DNA of 64,000 nt from Chrysiogenes arsenatis DSM 11915 (GTDB lineage Bacteria > Chrysiogenota > Chrysiogenetes > Chrysiogenales > Chrysiogenaceae): positions 353,646 to 417,645 of the forward strand of contig NZ_KI273144.1 of NCBI RefSeq assembly GCF_000469585.1, read 5' to 3'. Below the pieces are notes generated by a model, which ran no database searches, was not told where the DNA came from, and worked only from the letters and a program-made list of their open reading frames with translations. Positions within the stretch are counted from its first letter, which is position 1. Every line of letters begins with the position of its first letter. Below, one piece after another: positions 6,983 through 64,000 of this stretch. Position numbers and translations under genes: made by a program.

Positions 6983-7624
6983 ATGGAAGAGCAGGTAGTG
7001 ACGAGCATGGCGACGACGGAGCTTTTTTGGTTTGGCAATCATTCGGTACGGGTAGAGATGGACGGCGCAATGCCGTGGTTTAACGCCAATGATTTATGTG
7101 GGGTGTTGGAGTATGTGAACCCGCGCGAAGCGCTGGCGAAGCACGTTGACGGGGATTGCGTCACGAAACGCGACGCAATCGACGGCATGGGTCGCGTCCG
7201 CCAATCAAACTACGTCAGTGAGTTTGGTATGTATGCGTTGATTTTGGCGAGTCGCACGGACGCGGCGAAGCGTTTTCGTAAGTGGGTGACGAGCGAGGTG
7301 TTGCCGGAGATTCGCCGCACGGGGTGTTATGCGGGTGAGGCGATGGCACGGTTGGAGGCGTCGGATTTTATTGAAGAGGGCTACTTGCGGGGCAAGGCCG
7401 AGGGTATAGCAGAGGCGGCGCAGTTGGCGGTGGGGTTATTGCCGGAGCACCTGAAGCGGATTACGCGCTACCACACTATGGGGCTAACGACGCGTGAGGT
7501 TTGTAAGTTGTTAGGCCGTGATCGTTCAACGATCAAGCGGCATAAGCAGCGGTTGCGGGCGGCGGGGTTTATTGACAATGAGCATGGGGTGCTGATTGAC
7601 GAGTTGCCTCGGTTGTTTGTGTAA
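6983..7624 (+). CDS. BRO-N domain antirepressor-like protein
   Basis: 213 aa, ATG 6983 after AAGGAGGACGAC. Residues about 8-110 form a BRO-N domain: FWFGNHSVRV, WFNANDLCGVLEY, VSEFGMYALILASR, AKRFRKWVTSEVLPEIRRTG. This DNA-binding fold is common in phage antirepressors. The C-terminal part is different from the usual KilAC/ANT domain and has a helix-turn-helix (LTTREVCKLLGRDRSTIKRH) near residues 173-192. It may counteract the repressor or act as an early regulator. Confidence 0.8.
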   Translation: MEEQVVTSMATTELFWFGNHSVRVEMDGAMPWFNANDLCGVLEYVNPREALAKHVDGDCVTKRDAIDGMGRVRQSNYVSEFGMYALILASRTDAAKRFRKWVTSEVLPEIRRTGCYAGEAMARLEASDFIEEGYLRGKAEGIAEAAQLAVGLLPEHLKRITRYHTMGLTTREVCKLLGRDRSTIKRHKQRLRAAGFIDNEHGVLIDELPRLFV

Positions 7625-7638
7625 GGCGGGAGGAAAGG

Positions 7639-7935
7639 ATGGCACAAAAAACCTACACGCCGGTGATGAGCAGCTACAAGCTGATCGACATCATGGAGTT
7701 TTTACACCAGCAAAGTACGGCGGTGAGTGCGGCAGAGATTGCCCGTGGTTTAGAGCTGCCGCACGGGACGGTGATGAGTCACCTGAGTGTGCTTTTGGAG
7801 CGCAAGTGGGTGCGGATGAGTGGGGCGCTGTACGAGCCGGGCAACCGGATTAGCGCGCTGTATGCGGCGTATGTACAGGCACTGAAGCACAAGCGGCACA
7901 CGCTTGATGGCGAGATTGCGACACTGGGAGGGTGA
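7639..7935 (+). CDS. Winged HTH protein, IclR-type DNA-binding domain
   Basis: 98 aa, ATG 7639 behind GGGAGGAAAGG. The block YKLIDIMEFLHQQ, AAEIARGLELPHGTVMSHLS and LLERKWVRMSGALYEPG is the N-terminal winged helix of IclR-family regulators, without the effector domain. It is the third DNA-binding protein in a row in the early operon. Target and role are unknown. It may help switch from early to middle transcription. Confidence 0.7.
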   Translation: MAQKTYTPVMSSYKLIDIMEFLHQQSTAVSAAEIARGLELPHGTVMSHLSVLLERKWVRMSGALYEPGNRISALYAAYVQALKHKRHTLDGEIATLGG

Positions 7936-9088: not shown

Positions 9089-10681
9089 ATGGCACGTGCG
9101 ATTGATCCGGCTATGTTAGCGATGATGCAAGCGGACTGGCGCGCGGCTGGTGCGGGGATGCGTACGCGGGTGGTACAGCAGTGGGCTGAGCGTCTGGGGG
9201 TTTCGGTGGCGGCGTTATACCGCGCTCTGCCACGGCAGCGCACGCATGAAAGTTCGCGCAAGATTGAGGGGATTGAGGATGCTGCGCGGGTGGTGGCGGC
9301 GATTAAGTGTCGTCCGCCGGAGCATCGGGGGCGGCTGACAACGGAGCAGGCGCTGCGCTTAGCGGTGGAAAATGGGTCGTTGGAGCCGCGGTTTGGCGAG
9401 GTGCATCCGTCAACGTTTGATCGGGTGATTCGGGAGACGGGGGATCTGCGGCAGCGGCGGCGGGTGTGCCGGTTCCAAGCGGAGCGGCCAAACGAGTTGC
9501 ACCATGTGGATGCGTCGACGTCGAGTTGTTTCTATATCGCGAAGCGTTTGCCGGATGGGGAATACGTGTTGAAGTTGCACCGTGGCACAAAGGATTACAA
9601 GAATAAGCCGATTCCGGTGGATGGGCTGCGGCCTTGGGTCTACGGGTTGACGGATGATCATAGCGGGGTGCATGTGGCACGGTATGTGGCGGCGTGTGGC
9701 GAGAGCGCGGGGGACAATCTGGATTTTCTGGCGTGGGCATGGAGCCGTAATGAATGCAAGGAGTTTTTTGGGCTGCCAGAAAAGATCAAGGGGGATAAGG
9801 GGCCGATGATGTCGAGCGAGGGGGCGGTGGATTTTTTTGGCCGCCTGGGGGTGGAGATTGACCCGTCGGTGCCGCTGTCTAAGGAGGCTCACGGCAAAAT
9901 TGAGCGCCCGTGGCGGACGCAGTGGCAGCGGTTTGAGTTGCCGTTTTTTGTGGAGAGTAATTGGAAGTCGTTTGAAATCACCCTTTCGGAATTGAATCGG
10001 CAGTTTTTTATTTATCAGCAGGAGCTAAATGGGCGTGAGCATCGCTTCGAGCGGGGGGCGAGTCGCATGGATGCGTGGCGCGAGATCAGCCGCTACGGCG
10101 GCGCGGTGGAGTTGCCGGAGGATGCGATCCGCACGGTGGTGCGGCGTTGGAAGCGTAAGGTGGATCAGGCGGGGGTGCTTTCGCTGGAAGGGGTGCTGTA
10201 CGAGGTGAAGGGGCTGCATGATGCCTGGGTATTTGTGTACCAAGGGGTGTTTGAGCAGGCGATGGTGGTGGTGGATTGTGTTACTGGCCAGAAGTACGAG
10301 GTGGAGGATTTCCGTCCGAACAAGATTGGCGAGTTTACGGCGGCGCCGCATTCGCCGTACCAGAAGGCGGCGAAGGAAGCGGTGCAACTTGATGGGATGC
10401 ACAATTCTTTATATACGCAGGCGGTGGCGGTTGACGCGAAGTTAAAGCGGCTGCCGACGCGGACGAAGGAGGTTCGTGCTTTGGAAAATCCGCTGAATGT
10501 GGATGTGTATCCGGATGTGGCGGCGGCGTTACGGGATTTGCAGGCGATGTCGGGTTTGATTTTAACGGGTGCGTCGCGGGCTGAGGTGGCGCGATTGATT
10601 GAAGAGGCGGGTTGTTCACGCCGGTTTGTGGCGGAGTTGGCGGCGGATATTGAACACGAACGGGTGCGCGAGGCGCTATAA
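9089..10681 (+). CDS. DDE transposase (MuA-like)
   Basis: 530 aa from ATG 9089, behind GAGGTGTGAGGCG. This enzyme binds the phage ends and performs strand transfer for integration and replicative transposition. An N-terminal helical DNA-binding region with a DNA-binding-type segment (RLGVSVAALYRALPR, about residues 35-49) is followed by an RNase H-like core with D141 (LHHVDAS), D236 (IKGDKGP) and E272 (GKIERPW). The last two are separated by exactly 35 residues, the D-D(35)E signature. A Mu-type C-terminal beta-barrel region follows (about 380-460), then a helical tail. The length is shorter than E. coli MuA because the extra N-terminal enhancer-binding subdomain is reduced. Confidence 0.9.
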   Translation: MARAIDPAMLAMMQADWRAAGAGMRTRVVQQWAERLGVSVAALYRALPRQRTHESSRKIEGIEDAARVVAAIKCRPPEHRGRLTTEQALRLAVENGSLEPRFGEVHPSTFDRVIRETGDLRQRRRVCRFQAERPNELHHVDASTSSCFYIAKRLPDGEYVLKLHRGTKDYKNKPIPVDGLRPWVYGLTDDHSGVHVARYVAACGESAGDNLDFLAWAWSRNECKEFFGLPEKIKGDKGPMMSSEGAVDFFGRLGVEIDPSVPLSKEAHGKIERPWRTQWQRFELPFFVESNWKSFEITLSELNRQFFIYQQELNGREHRFERGASRMDAWREISRYGGAVELPEDAIRTVVRRWKRKVDQAGVLSLEGVLYEVKGLHDAWVFVYQGVFEQAMVVVDCVTGQKYEVEDFRPNKIGEFTAAPHSPYQKAAKEAVQLDGMHNSLYTQAVAVDAKLKRLPTRTKEVRALENPLNVDVYPDVAAALRDLQAMSGLILTGASRAEVARLIEEAGCSRRFVAELAADIEHERVREAL

Positions 10682-61989: not shown

Positions 61990-62059
61990 GAATTAACGGG
62001 CAAAATACCCGAAAAACGACCGAACCGGCACCCACCTTCCATACCCGGGAAGGATAGTG

Positions 62060-62228
62060 TTGACATATTCCGGCAGGTCTCCTGACTTGCGTTTCATCCT
62101 TCCGACCGCCTTCCCAGCCGGTATGGCCAGTGGCAAAGTGATCAGTCGTCAACGCTTACAGTGGCGGGTCCGTGGGGGAGTTGCACCCCTCTTCCCTTTT
62201 CATCTGCCGCCTTCGCGACAGACACCGG
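62060..62228 (-). promoter_or_regulatory. Cobalamin riboswitch
   Basis: Read on the minus strand the leader holds all core parts of the adenosylcobalamin aptamer: an AAAAGGGAAGAGGGGTGCAA stretch, the CCGCCACTGTAA element, TTTGCCACTGG, GGCTGGGAAGGC, and the B12 box AGTCAGGAGACCTGCC (62072-62087). It lies directly before btuB and its expression platform helix. It would turn off uptake genes when cobalamin is plentiful. Confidence 0.95.
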
Positions 62229-62243
62229 AAAATCAATAGCTGC

Positions 62244-62272
62244 TTTTTACGTGAAGCGTTGCTGGCTGTCAA
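62244..62272 (-). promoter_or_regulatory. Promoter of the cobalamin operon
   Basis: On the minus strand TTGACA (62267-62272), a 17-base spacer and TAAAAA (62244-62249) lie just upstream of the aptamer. The -35 box is perfect and the -10 box moderate; spacing to the aptamer 5' end is right for transcription starting near 62237. Confidence 0.6.
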
Positions 62273-62355
62273 CGAGAGAAACAGCGTTTTGGTACACTAT
62301 TGCGAGTTGGTGAAAACGGTAAAACCGTGCAACATCAAGAGAAAAAAGCCATCTG

Positions 62356-62514
62356 TCATCTCGAACGTGTGAGTTTTACACCACAAACTTTACTAACATG
62401 TCTTTTTTCAACGAAAGTTGGCACGCTGACTGTTGGACGGGGCAGTGGGGATATCCTGCCCAGCGTTTTTAACTGCTGCAGAAATGGCTGTTCGACTTCG
62501 GTGTATTCACTCAT
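62356..62514 (-). pseudogene. hsdR: hsdR relic: N-terminus of type I restriction subunit, truncated
   Basis: A 52-codon frame starts at ATG 62514, overlapping the AlbA_2 stop (ATGA). It begins MSEYTEVEQPFLQQLKTLG, the typical N-terminus of type I restriction HsdR subunits, where a tryptophan normally follows. Here the next residues (RISPLPRPTV...) no longer resemble HsdR, and the frame stops at 62356. The remaining 950-plus codons of HsdR are absent; the cobalamin operon follows instead. It therefore looks like the scar of a deletion that removed hsdR. An orphan small protein is the alternative. Confidence 0.7.
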
Positions 62515-64000
62515 TCCCGCTCTCCTTCGTGCAGAGCTTGCAAGCAGTGTTTGCCGAGCGCAGTCAGCCGGTAGCGCTGCTTGCTGCTGCGGGGTTTATC
62601 GGGCAGAGTCATTTCGATCACGCCTGCCTCCAATGCTGGCGTTAGGTACAAGCTGCTGAAGCTCACCCGGTCGCGCAGCGCCATGGCAGCCATCAGCTCA
62701 CTCCGGCTCATCTCGCCTGCCAGCACTTTAAGCAAGGGGGTGACTTGCTGGGTGACTTGCTGGGTAACTTGCTGGGTAACTTCGGGGGTGGCATCCGCCA
62801 TTGGATGCACTGGCAGTCGGATCAGGTAGGCAAGGCGTTCATCGTCGGTTTCGAAGACTGGCGCAGGCGAGCCATTAGCGGCCATCGCTTTGAGGATTTT
62901 TGGTACACCGGTAGAACGCCCTTCAGTCAGATCCAGCTCCTTGAGAAACTCGCCGATACGGCGATTACGGTAGCGGCGGCTTACCGCCCGGCCAGCGGCA
63001 AAATCTTCCAGCCGGATAGAGCGATCTGGACCGGGTACACTCAACACCACCAGCTCGCTGCGGCTGATGCGCACTTCAATCGGTTCGCGCTCTTCGTAGG
63101 AACGGTGATACACCGCATTGACCAGCACCTCTTCAATGGCGGCATAGGGAAAATTCCATACCCGTGTGGCTTCGGCCCGGTCGGGGTGCTTGATCACCGT
63201 CTCGTGCAGATAGTTGCGCTGGATATACCCCAGTACCTCGCGGATCATACGCGCTAGCGGGCCTTTGAAGATTTTCTCGTCAAAGCGGTCACCACCAGCC
63301 CCTTCGGGAAACCAGACGACATCAATCTGCGTATAGGGGAAAAAGCGCTCTGGATTTTCATTGAAAAACAGCAGGCCGACGTTTTTCGGCCAGGGCGATT
63401 CTGCCGGACCACCGACAACATTCATCTGCCGCCCCAAGGCTTCAACGGAAAGGTTTTCGCCATCTTTGGCCAAGGCACTACCCACTTCGCGCAGATATTC
63501 CAGCATCAGCGGTTTAGACAAATCCGCCACGCTGGCCTGCTGGGCATAGCGATCATCAAAGGGCACCGTAGCCGTCAGGCTCAGCAGCTCCCGCTCGGTG
63601 TCGCCCTTGGCTTCCACCGTACTGCTGTAACGGCGAATGTAGTAATGCCAAATTTTCTGTTTAGCCGTAACCGATGCCGGTGCTTTGTAGGGGCGATTCA
63701 TGCCGCCGGGAGCCTGCAATACCATCAGGGTGCGCCCAGCCACGCGTTCGATGCTCAGCGCTGGAAAATAGGGCGGCTGAATCAACTGGCAGGCGGCCAG
63801 CAATTGCTGCTGGATGTGGTCGAGTTGCTCTTCTGCCAAACCCACAGGGGGAAACTGCGGCTGGCCATTGGCATCGCAATCCTGACCGATCACCACATAG
63901 CCGCCGCCCAGATTTTCAAAATCGTTGGCAAAAGCGCACAGGGTGCGGATGATGGCATCGGGATTCCAGCCCGCCTTGTATTCGATGCGCTCCCCTTCCA
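62511..64000 (-). CDS. AlbA_2 / HATPase_c_4 protein (RecG-like C-terminal), 5' end off window
   Basis: At least 496 aa; the N-terminus lies beyond the right edge, with frame continuing through EGERIEYKAGW to 64000. The N-terminal Schlafen AlbA_2 domain (LCAFANDFENLGGGYVVIG, RTLMVLQAPGGMNRPYKAP, YYIRRYSST) is followed by an HATPase_c_4 region (EEVLVNAVYHRSYEEREPIE, SVPGPDRS, RYRNRRIGEFL) and a C-terminal winged helix. Between these is a QVTQQVT repeat. Such proteins are frequent companions in type I restriction loci, and the hsdR relic overlapping its stop supports that setting. Confidence 0.85.
   Translation of the reverse strand, partial: EGERIEYKAGWNPDAIIRTLCAFANDFENLGGGYVVIGQDCDANGQPQFPPVGLAEEQLDHIQQQLLAACQLIQPPYFPALSIERVAGRTLMVLQAPGGMNRPYKAPASVTAKQKIWHYYIRRYSSTVEAKGDTERELLSLTATVPFDDRYAQQASVADLSKPLMLEYLREVGSALAKDGENLSVEALGRQMNVVGGPAESPWPKNVGLLFFNENPERFFPYTQIDVVWFPEGAGGDRFDEKIFKGPLARMIREVLGYIQRNYLHETVIKHPDRAEATRVWNFPYAAIEEVLVNAVYHRSYEEREPIEVRISRSELVVLSVPGPDRSIRLEDFAAGRAVSRRYRNRRIGEFLKELDLTEGRSTGVPKILKAMAANGSPAPVFETDDERLAYLIRLPVHPMADATPEVTQQVTQQVTQQVTPLLKVLAGEMSRSELMAAMALRDRVSFSSLYLTPALEAGVIEMTLPDKPRSSKQRYRLTALGKHCLQALHEGERE

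Follow-up and report, generated by a model that had tools for sequence, protein, structure and literature searches.

An intact AlbA_2 gene in a probably eroded type I restriction-modification locus of Chrysiogenes arsenatis

The stretch of DNA analyzed here (the window; 64,000 nt of Chrysiogenes arsenatis DSM 11915, positions 353646-417645 of contig NZ_KI273144.1) carries at its right edge an AlbA_2 gene with short pieces of type I restriction-modification genes on either side. The gene lies on the minus strand at 62511-64052, with the part up to 64000 in the window, and encodes an intact accessory protein of 513 aa with SLFN_AlbA_2, HATPase_c_4 (RecG-C-like) and Fic-like_C domains. All three domains exceed their Pfam cut-offs in the 495 residues encoded inside the window, with 43.5 bits against 25.3, 36.1 against 26 and 88.5 against 27, respectively. 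The reading frame is open and has no stop, and among the 153 positions that are at least 97% conserved in 72 relatives (a count that excludes rows with stops as well as L086, L100, L105 and L118) the protein differs at two, both mild changes from A to V. The solved-structure chains related to it by sequence are 4rgl (C-terminus), 2kyy (N-terminus, RecG-related) and 3lmm, and its predicted structure model has a mean pLDDT of 78.3 and a pTM of 0.50. The domain content suggests an ATPase that binds nucleic acid and has a winged helix, probably an accessory in defence or regulation. A 12-nt in-frame tandem repeat, (VTQQ)n, is found between the ATPase and C-terminal parts at 62738-62789 (L003:884-935); VTxx-like units, counted by pattern, number 2-13 in 43 of 73 rows and are absent from the other 30.

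Right after the AlbA_2 stop, an ORF of 52 aa occupies 62356-62514 on the minus strand, and its start shares 4 nt (ATGA) with the AlbA_2 stop, in line with the original prediction. The ORF had been described as beginning exactly like HsdR for 19 residues. The likeness stands, but not the exactness, as codons 1-19 (62458-62514, minus strand; MSEYTEVEQPFLQQLKTLG) are 68-89% identical to the HsdR start at nine related loci with full HsdR (tblastn). A 60-column profile of the HsdR start gives the window 31.9 bits, compared to at most 6.9 in 2000 dinucleotide shuffles. DNA alignment with the related locus L041 shows that 22 nt are missing from the window directly after codon 19. Past this gap, the HsdR homology continues in another frame, where the window has GQDIPTAPSNSQRANFR and L040 has GPDIPAAPGKSQRLNFR, and it ends at 62411. 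This second piece (62411-62455, minus strand) represents HsdR residues 28-42 (DIPTAPSNSQRANFR), and its score was matched by 1/2000 dinucleotide shuffles, compared to 0/2000 for the first piece. The divergence previously placed after 19 residues is thus true of the ORF's own frame, in which the remaining codons consist of out-of-frame hsdR followed by unrelated DNA. The proposed comparison with relatives carrying full hsdR placed junctions both at the 22-nt gap and at about 62411. A junction near 62457 was therefore correct as one edge of the gap and was rejected as the final one; these alignments put 62457 at the edge of a small deletion inside the hsdR stub and the final hsdR break at about 62411. 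In L041, the 22 nt of the gap lie between two GGGC, and deletion between these short direct repeats may have produced the gap. The DNA past the break, upstream of btuB (62245-62410, minus strand), was compared with the btuB regions of two genomes of the same family; it matched neither significantly, and the comparison did not illuminate the old locus. It is followed by the cobalamin riboswitch of btuB (62055-62244, minus strand; 128.4 bits), which is a bystander.

On the other side, a fused leader ORF of 50 aa, recognized by HsdM/HsdS comparison, overlaps the AlbA_2 start at 64045-64197 (L003:2191-2343), outside the window. Its first part, KLTLSHHESQLLYACDDLHGSM, resembles the HsdM start (about residues 1-23), the second, NPDALQDVL, is identical to residues 133-141 of the L040 HsdM and is also present in L041, and the third, TGAVPVTPDTEAAHA, resembles the C-terminus of the L041 HsdS, LTGKVPVTGDAAAPEAAHG. 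The HsdS piece is short, with 10.6 bits, and none of 2000 shuffles was as good as the real sequence for either the HsdM-start or the HsdS-end piece. The hsdM start is joined in frame, via the 9-codon HsdM piece, to the last hsdS codons, possibly by deletion between the short direct repeats GAT-T-CTCA-CGGC. The expectation that hsdM and hsdS lie past the right edge was not borne out, as only this fused stump of the two genes is present in the 2855 nt between the window edge and the contig end at 420500. A Mutator-family (PF00872) transposase gene runs off the contig end at 65987-66853 (L003:4133-4999), 1.8 kb from the leader ORF.

When a full HsdM of 925 aa was searched against the same genome, the sole match, a weak one taken alone, was the stump itself (64114-64188; E 0.355, 64% over 25 residues). 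A full HsdR had no match, and neither HSDR_N nor Methylase_S was detected in the genome with family searches whose control was positive in 9 of 14 known genomes; the assembly consists of 22 contigs, so that a piece may have been lost. Three proteins of the genome with an N6-methylase domain carry Eco57I/HSDR_N_2, Type_ISP_C and MmeI domains, and none of them matches full HsdM. Of the motor/nuclease subunit HsdR, the locus has codons 1-19 and 28-42 only, of the methyltransferase HsdM a stump of 25 residues, and of the specificity subunit HsdS a C-terminal stump. It is thus no solitary (orphan) type I methyltransferase, which would have intact hsdM and hsdS without hsdR. As no HsdR, HsdS or further HsdM match exists in the genome, nothing was found that could methylate as a type I system. 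The earlier suggestion of methylation left without restriction was therefore rejected, and for this assembly the locus provides neither activity.

The gene order from which these pieces could derive is found in relatives. One genome from each of 84,980 species was scanned with the 513-aa AlbA_2 protein, and the best 80 of 313 confirmed loci were kept. In nine of these 80 (L040, L041, L045, L046, L049, L073, L081, L086 and L089), the AlbA_2 stop overlaps the start of a full hsdR (product of 1084-1091 aa), by 8 nt in L089 and by 4 nt in the other eight, and the L040 protein is identified as HsdR by both TIGR00348 and PADLOC REase_I. Upstream of AlbA_2, hsdM and hsdS are present in all eight intact loci in which the 5' side is covered; hsdS adjoins AlbA_2 in L040, L045, L049 and L073 and is farther away in L041, L046, L081 and L089. 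The two closest relatives of the window AlbA_2 among the best 80 of 313, L041 (82% identity) and L040 (81%), both have intact hsdM, hsdS and hsdR, and the tree places the window with them (support 94, not starred). Other genes also follow AlbA_2. In L052, L062 and L064, it is followed with a 4-nt overlap by an ORF of 770-808 aa, which we take to resemble a TOTE-type helicase/restriction protein, and a short M(A/T)VESLPNFTRPARQRWESIPAEIRQRLL-like ORF follows in several beta-proteobacterial loci (L047, L051, L058, L059, L060, L071 and L078).

The pieces around the window AlbA_2 occur in the order HsdM start, HsdM internal, HsdS end, AlbA_2 and HsdR start, with the AlbA_2 frame intact, i.e., the arrangement of a decayed type I locus. 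The deletion scar proposed in the original prediction is supported and is larger than first described, as it comprises stumps of all three hsd genes. Very probably, this is an eroded type I restriction-modification locus that retains its intact, embedded AlbA_2 gene. The ancestral operon would have had hsdM and hsdS before AlbA_2 and hsdR after it, and several deletions would have taken most of the three hsd genes, leaving of hsdR its first 42 codons with a frameshifting gap of 22 nt. AlbA_2 might still be expressed from the old operon promoter, putatively coupled to the fused leader ORF, and its product would act alone as a predicted nucleic-acid-binding ATPase.

Stubs of hsd genes are also found beside AlbA_2 in other lineages on the one tree calculated, which was a quick IQ-TREE run with 80 rows that omitted L087 (23 stops). 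Besides the window, an hsdR stub follows AlbA_2 in 7 of the 80 related loci and an hsdM stub in 6 (best 80 of 313; some scored by eye). The tree rows with an hsdR stub (n = 8) are the window, L044, L055, L056, L066, L084, L092 and L107, and those with an hsdM stub (n = 6) are L101, L103, L106, L114, L115 and L119. The remaining rows were scored as adjacent or near hsdR (13, with L093 counted as intact though its hsdR runs off the contig), intact hsdM (2) and none (51, including L096 with hsdR 2.5 kb downstream and L100 and L105 with the contig end at the gene). Profiles support the hsdR stubs of the window, L055, L056, L066, L084 and L107 and the hsdM stubs of L106, L114, L115 and L119, while those of L044 (8 codons), L092 (5 codons), L101 and L103 were recognized by eye only. 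In L056, the stub joins HsdR residues 1-14 to 177-202. An HsdM start just before AlbA_2 is shared by the window, L044 and L066, and an in-frame fusion of HsdM start and HsdS end that overlaps the AlbA_2 start is present in the window and, as read by eye (the HsdS end included), in L044. The genome of L044 (Variovorax soli) has no HsdR match. Among 399 genomes of its family, 18 have close AlbA_2 relatives, and inspection by eye detected no stub other than that of L044 itself. AlbA_2 relatives also turned up elsewhere, two among viral contigs, six among phage records and three among plasmids.

One explanation for the intact AlbA_2 gene is plain transient decay, in which the whole locus is vanishing and AlbA_2 is intact because no deletion has struck it so far. 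We regard this as a serious possibility, somewhat short of probable. It agrees with the substitution pattern, as the stumps are not relaxed: with pN/pS at 0.21-0.23, they resemble AlbA_2 (0.19) and the corresponding codons compared between the intact loci L040 and L041 (0.24). With values this similar, the loss is probably recent, perhaps so much so that the intact AlbA_2 gene does not imply selection. AlbA_2 is also not immune to damage elsewhere. A relative in a same-family genome, G001 (L185, G001:C2:54500-59000), is broken over frames 1, 2 and perhaps 3 (E 4.9), AlbA_2 contains stops at the stub loci L092 (two) and L107 (one), and in G585 an hsdS end and an hsdR start lie beside an AlbA_2 gene that is split over two frames, possibly by sequencing error. 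Moreover, AlbA_2 was the bait for all loci, which biases the collection toward its survival. However, the distribution of stubs fits less well with transient decay. The hsdR-stub label changes 8 times on the tree, at least 5 of these on starred branches, and is not more clustered than shuffled labels on the 80-row tree. Repeated loss is the simplest reading, though a change can be either the gain or the later vanishing of a stub, so that the figure of 5 does not count deletions in the strict sense. Additionally, the stubs range from a few to about 55 codons, and HsdR searches detected no half-length hsdR beside them; one of these searches relied on a profile built for the HsdR subtype of the window, which suits L107 less well, and the contigs of L056, L084, L092 and L107 reach no further than 0.6-2 kb downstream. 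The 51 tree rows (of 80) in which AlbA_2 is followed by no stub and no hsd gene, subject to the caveats for L096, L100 and L105, also speak against a merely passing state.

Alternatively, AlbA_2 might have arrived already stripped, as a one-gene cassette that carries short hsd ends and inserts with target duplication, which we find rather unlikely for the window. Long target duplications have been reported to accompany the insertion of restriction-modification genes (PMC3031569). Among 77 loci including the window, seven (L044, L061, L067, L068, L070, L102 and L108) have AlbA_2 flanked by direct repeats of 28-202 nt, and the right copy begins 0-42 nt past the AlbA_2 stop. In a place-constrained test, the seven loci score 24-60, and a score of 20 or more was reached by 0/3000 cross-locus pairs; in the unconstrained first test, however, 3/1500 such pairs reached 18, 28 and 45. 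Three of the seven, L061, L067 and L068, belong to one clade and may represent a single event. In L044, the 8-codon HsdR stub runs directly into the right copy; the left copy coincides with the 3' end of a gene judged metalloprotease-like by eye. This gene is present in 4 of 100 other genomes of the genus, with no AlbA_2 in the flank examined; the right flank of L044, however, adjoins it in none of the four, i.e., only half of the empty site is shown. An intact operon, L045, is likewise located between repeats of 181 nt (170 identical), whereas five of six intact operons tested have no repeat. The window itself lacks such a long target duplication, as its scores of 12 and 9 are not above the controls. 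In L070, where AlbA_2 has no hsd neighbours, the direct repeat around the gene is 202 nt long (7573-7774 and 9696-9897; 178 identical).

A broader form of this idea, which we consider doubtful and put forward as speculation, is that AlbA_2 is also a one-gene mobile unit. It would exit the operon with tiny hsd ends, insert with a target duplication of 28-202 nt without a transposase, and both spread and persist without restriction or methylation. The window would then be such a unit, or an intermediate still in its old place.

We consider it highly improbable that the 52-aa ORF encodes a conserved small protein of its own. Its start codon does overlap the AlbA_2 stop, but past codon 19 it continues into out-of-frame hsdR and then into DNA without homology, and it is not conserved as such: AlbA_2 is followed by full hsdR, other stubs or something else, never by this ORF, in the 80 related loci (best 80 of 313), and this candidate was rejected. 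Chance likeness or misassembly can practically be dismissed even though the segments are short and the contig ends 2.9 kb away inside the transposase gene, since pieces of three hsd genes flank AlbA_2 in the order of the intact operon and hold up against the shuffle controls.

Accessory genes in restriction operons are usually taken to be helpers of the enzyme. The eroded type I locus described above, like the stub loci of several other lineages, has lost the enzyme but kept the accessory gene, and such enzyme-free loci make the function of the AlbA_2 ATPase testable in isolation. They also show that an hsd-like start codon is a poor ground for predicting methylation. Among the matches listed in a search of open-licence literature, we found no report of AlbA_2 genes left after hsd loss. 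The locus resembles the type I loci listed as decayed in REBASE in that its hsd genes are disrupted. What sets it apart is a fourth gene, embedded among stumps of all three subunit genes, that is still intact and overlaps with the fused leader ORF. Work by Nobusato in 2000 and Furuta in 2010 reportedly describes restriction-modification genes that duplicate long stretches of target DNA when they insert. The variable-length repeats around the L045 operon and around AlbA_2 genes are similar to this, whereas the window is repeat-free and the unit in the relatives is often AlbA_2 without a restriction-modification gene. Finally, PrrC is reported to sit inside a type IC locus and to become active upon inhibition of the enzyme (PMC12707154). 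As with PrrC in ecoprrI, AlbA_2 is set among hsd genes; however, it combines AlbA_2, ATPase and winged-helix parts instead of being an anticodon nuclease, and in the window it stands without its host enzyme.
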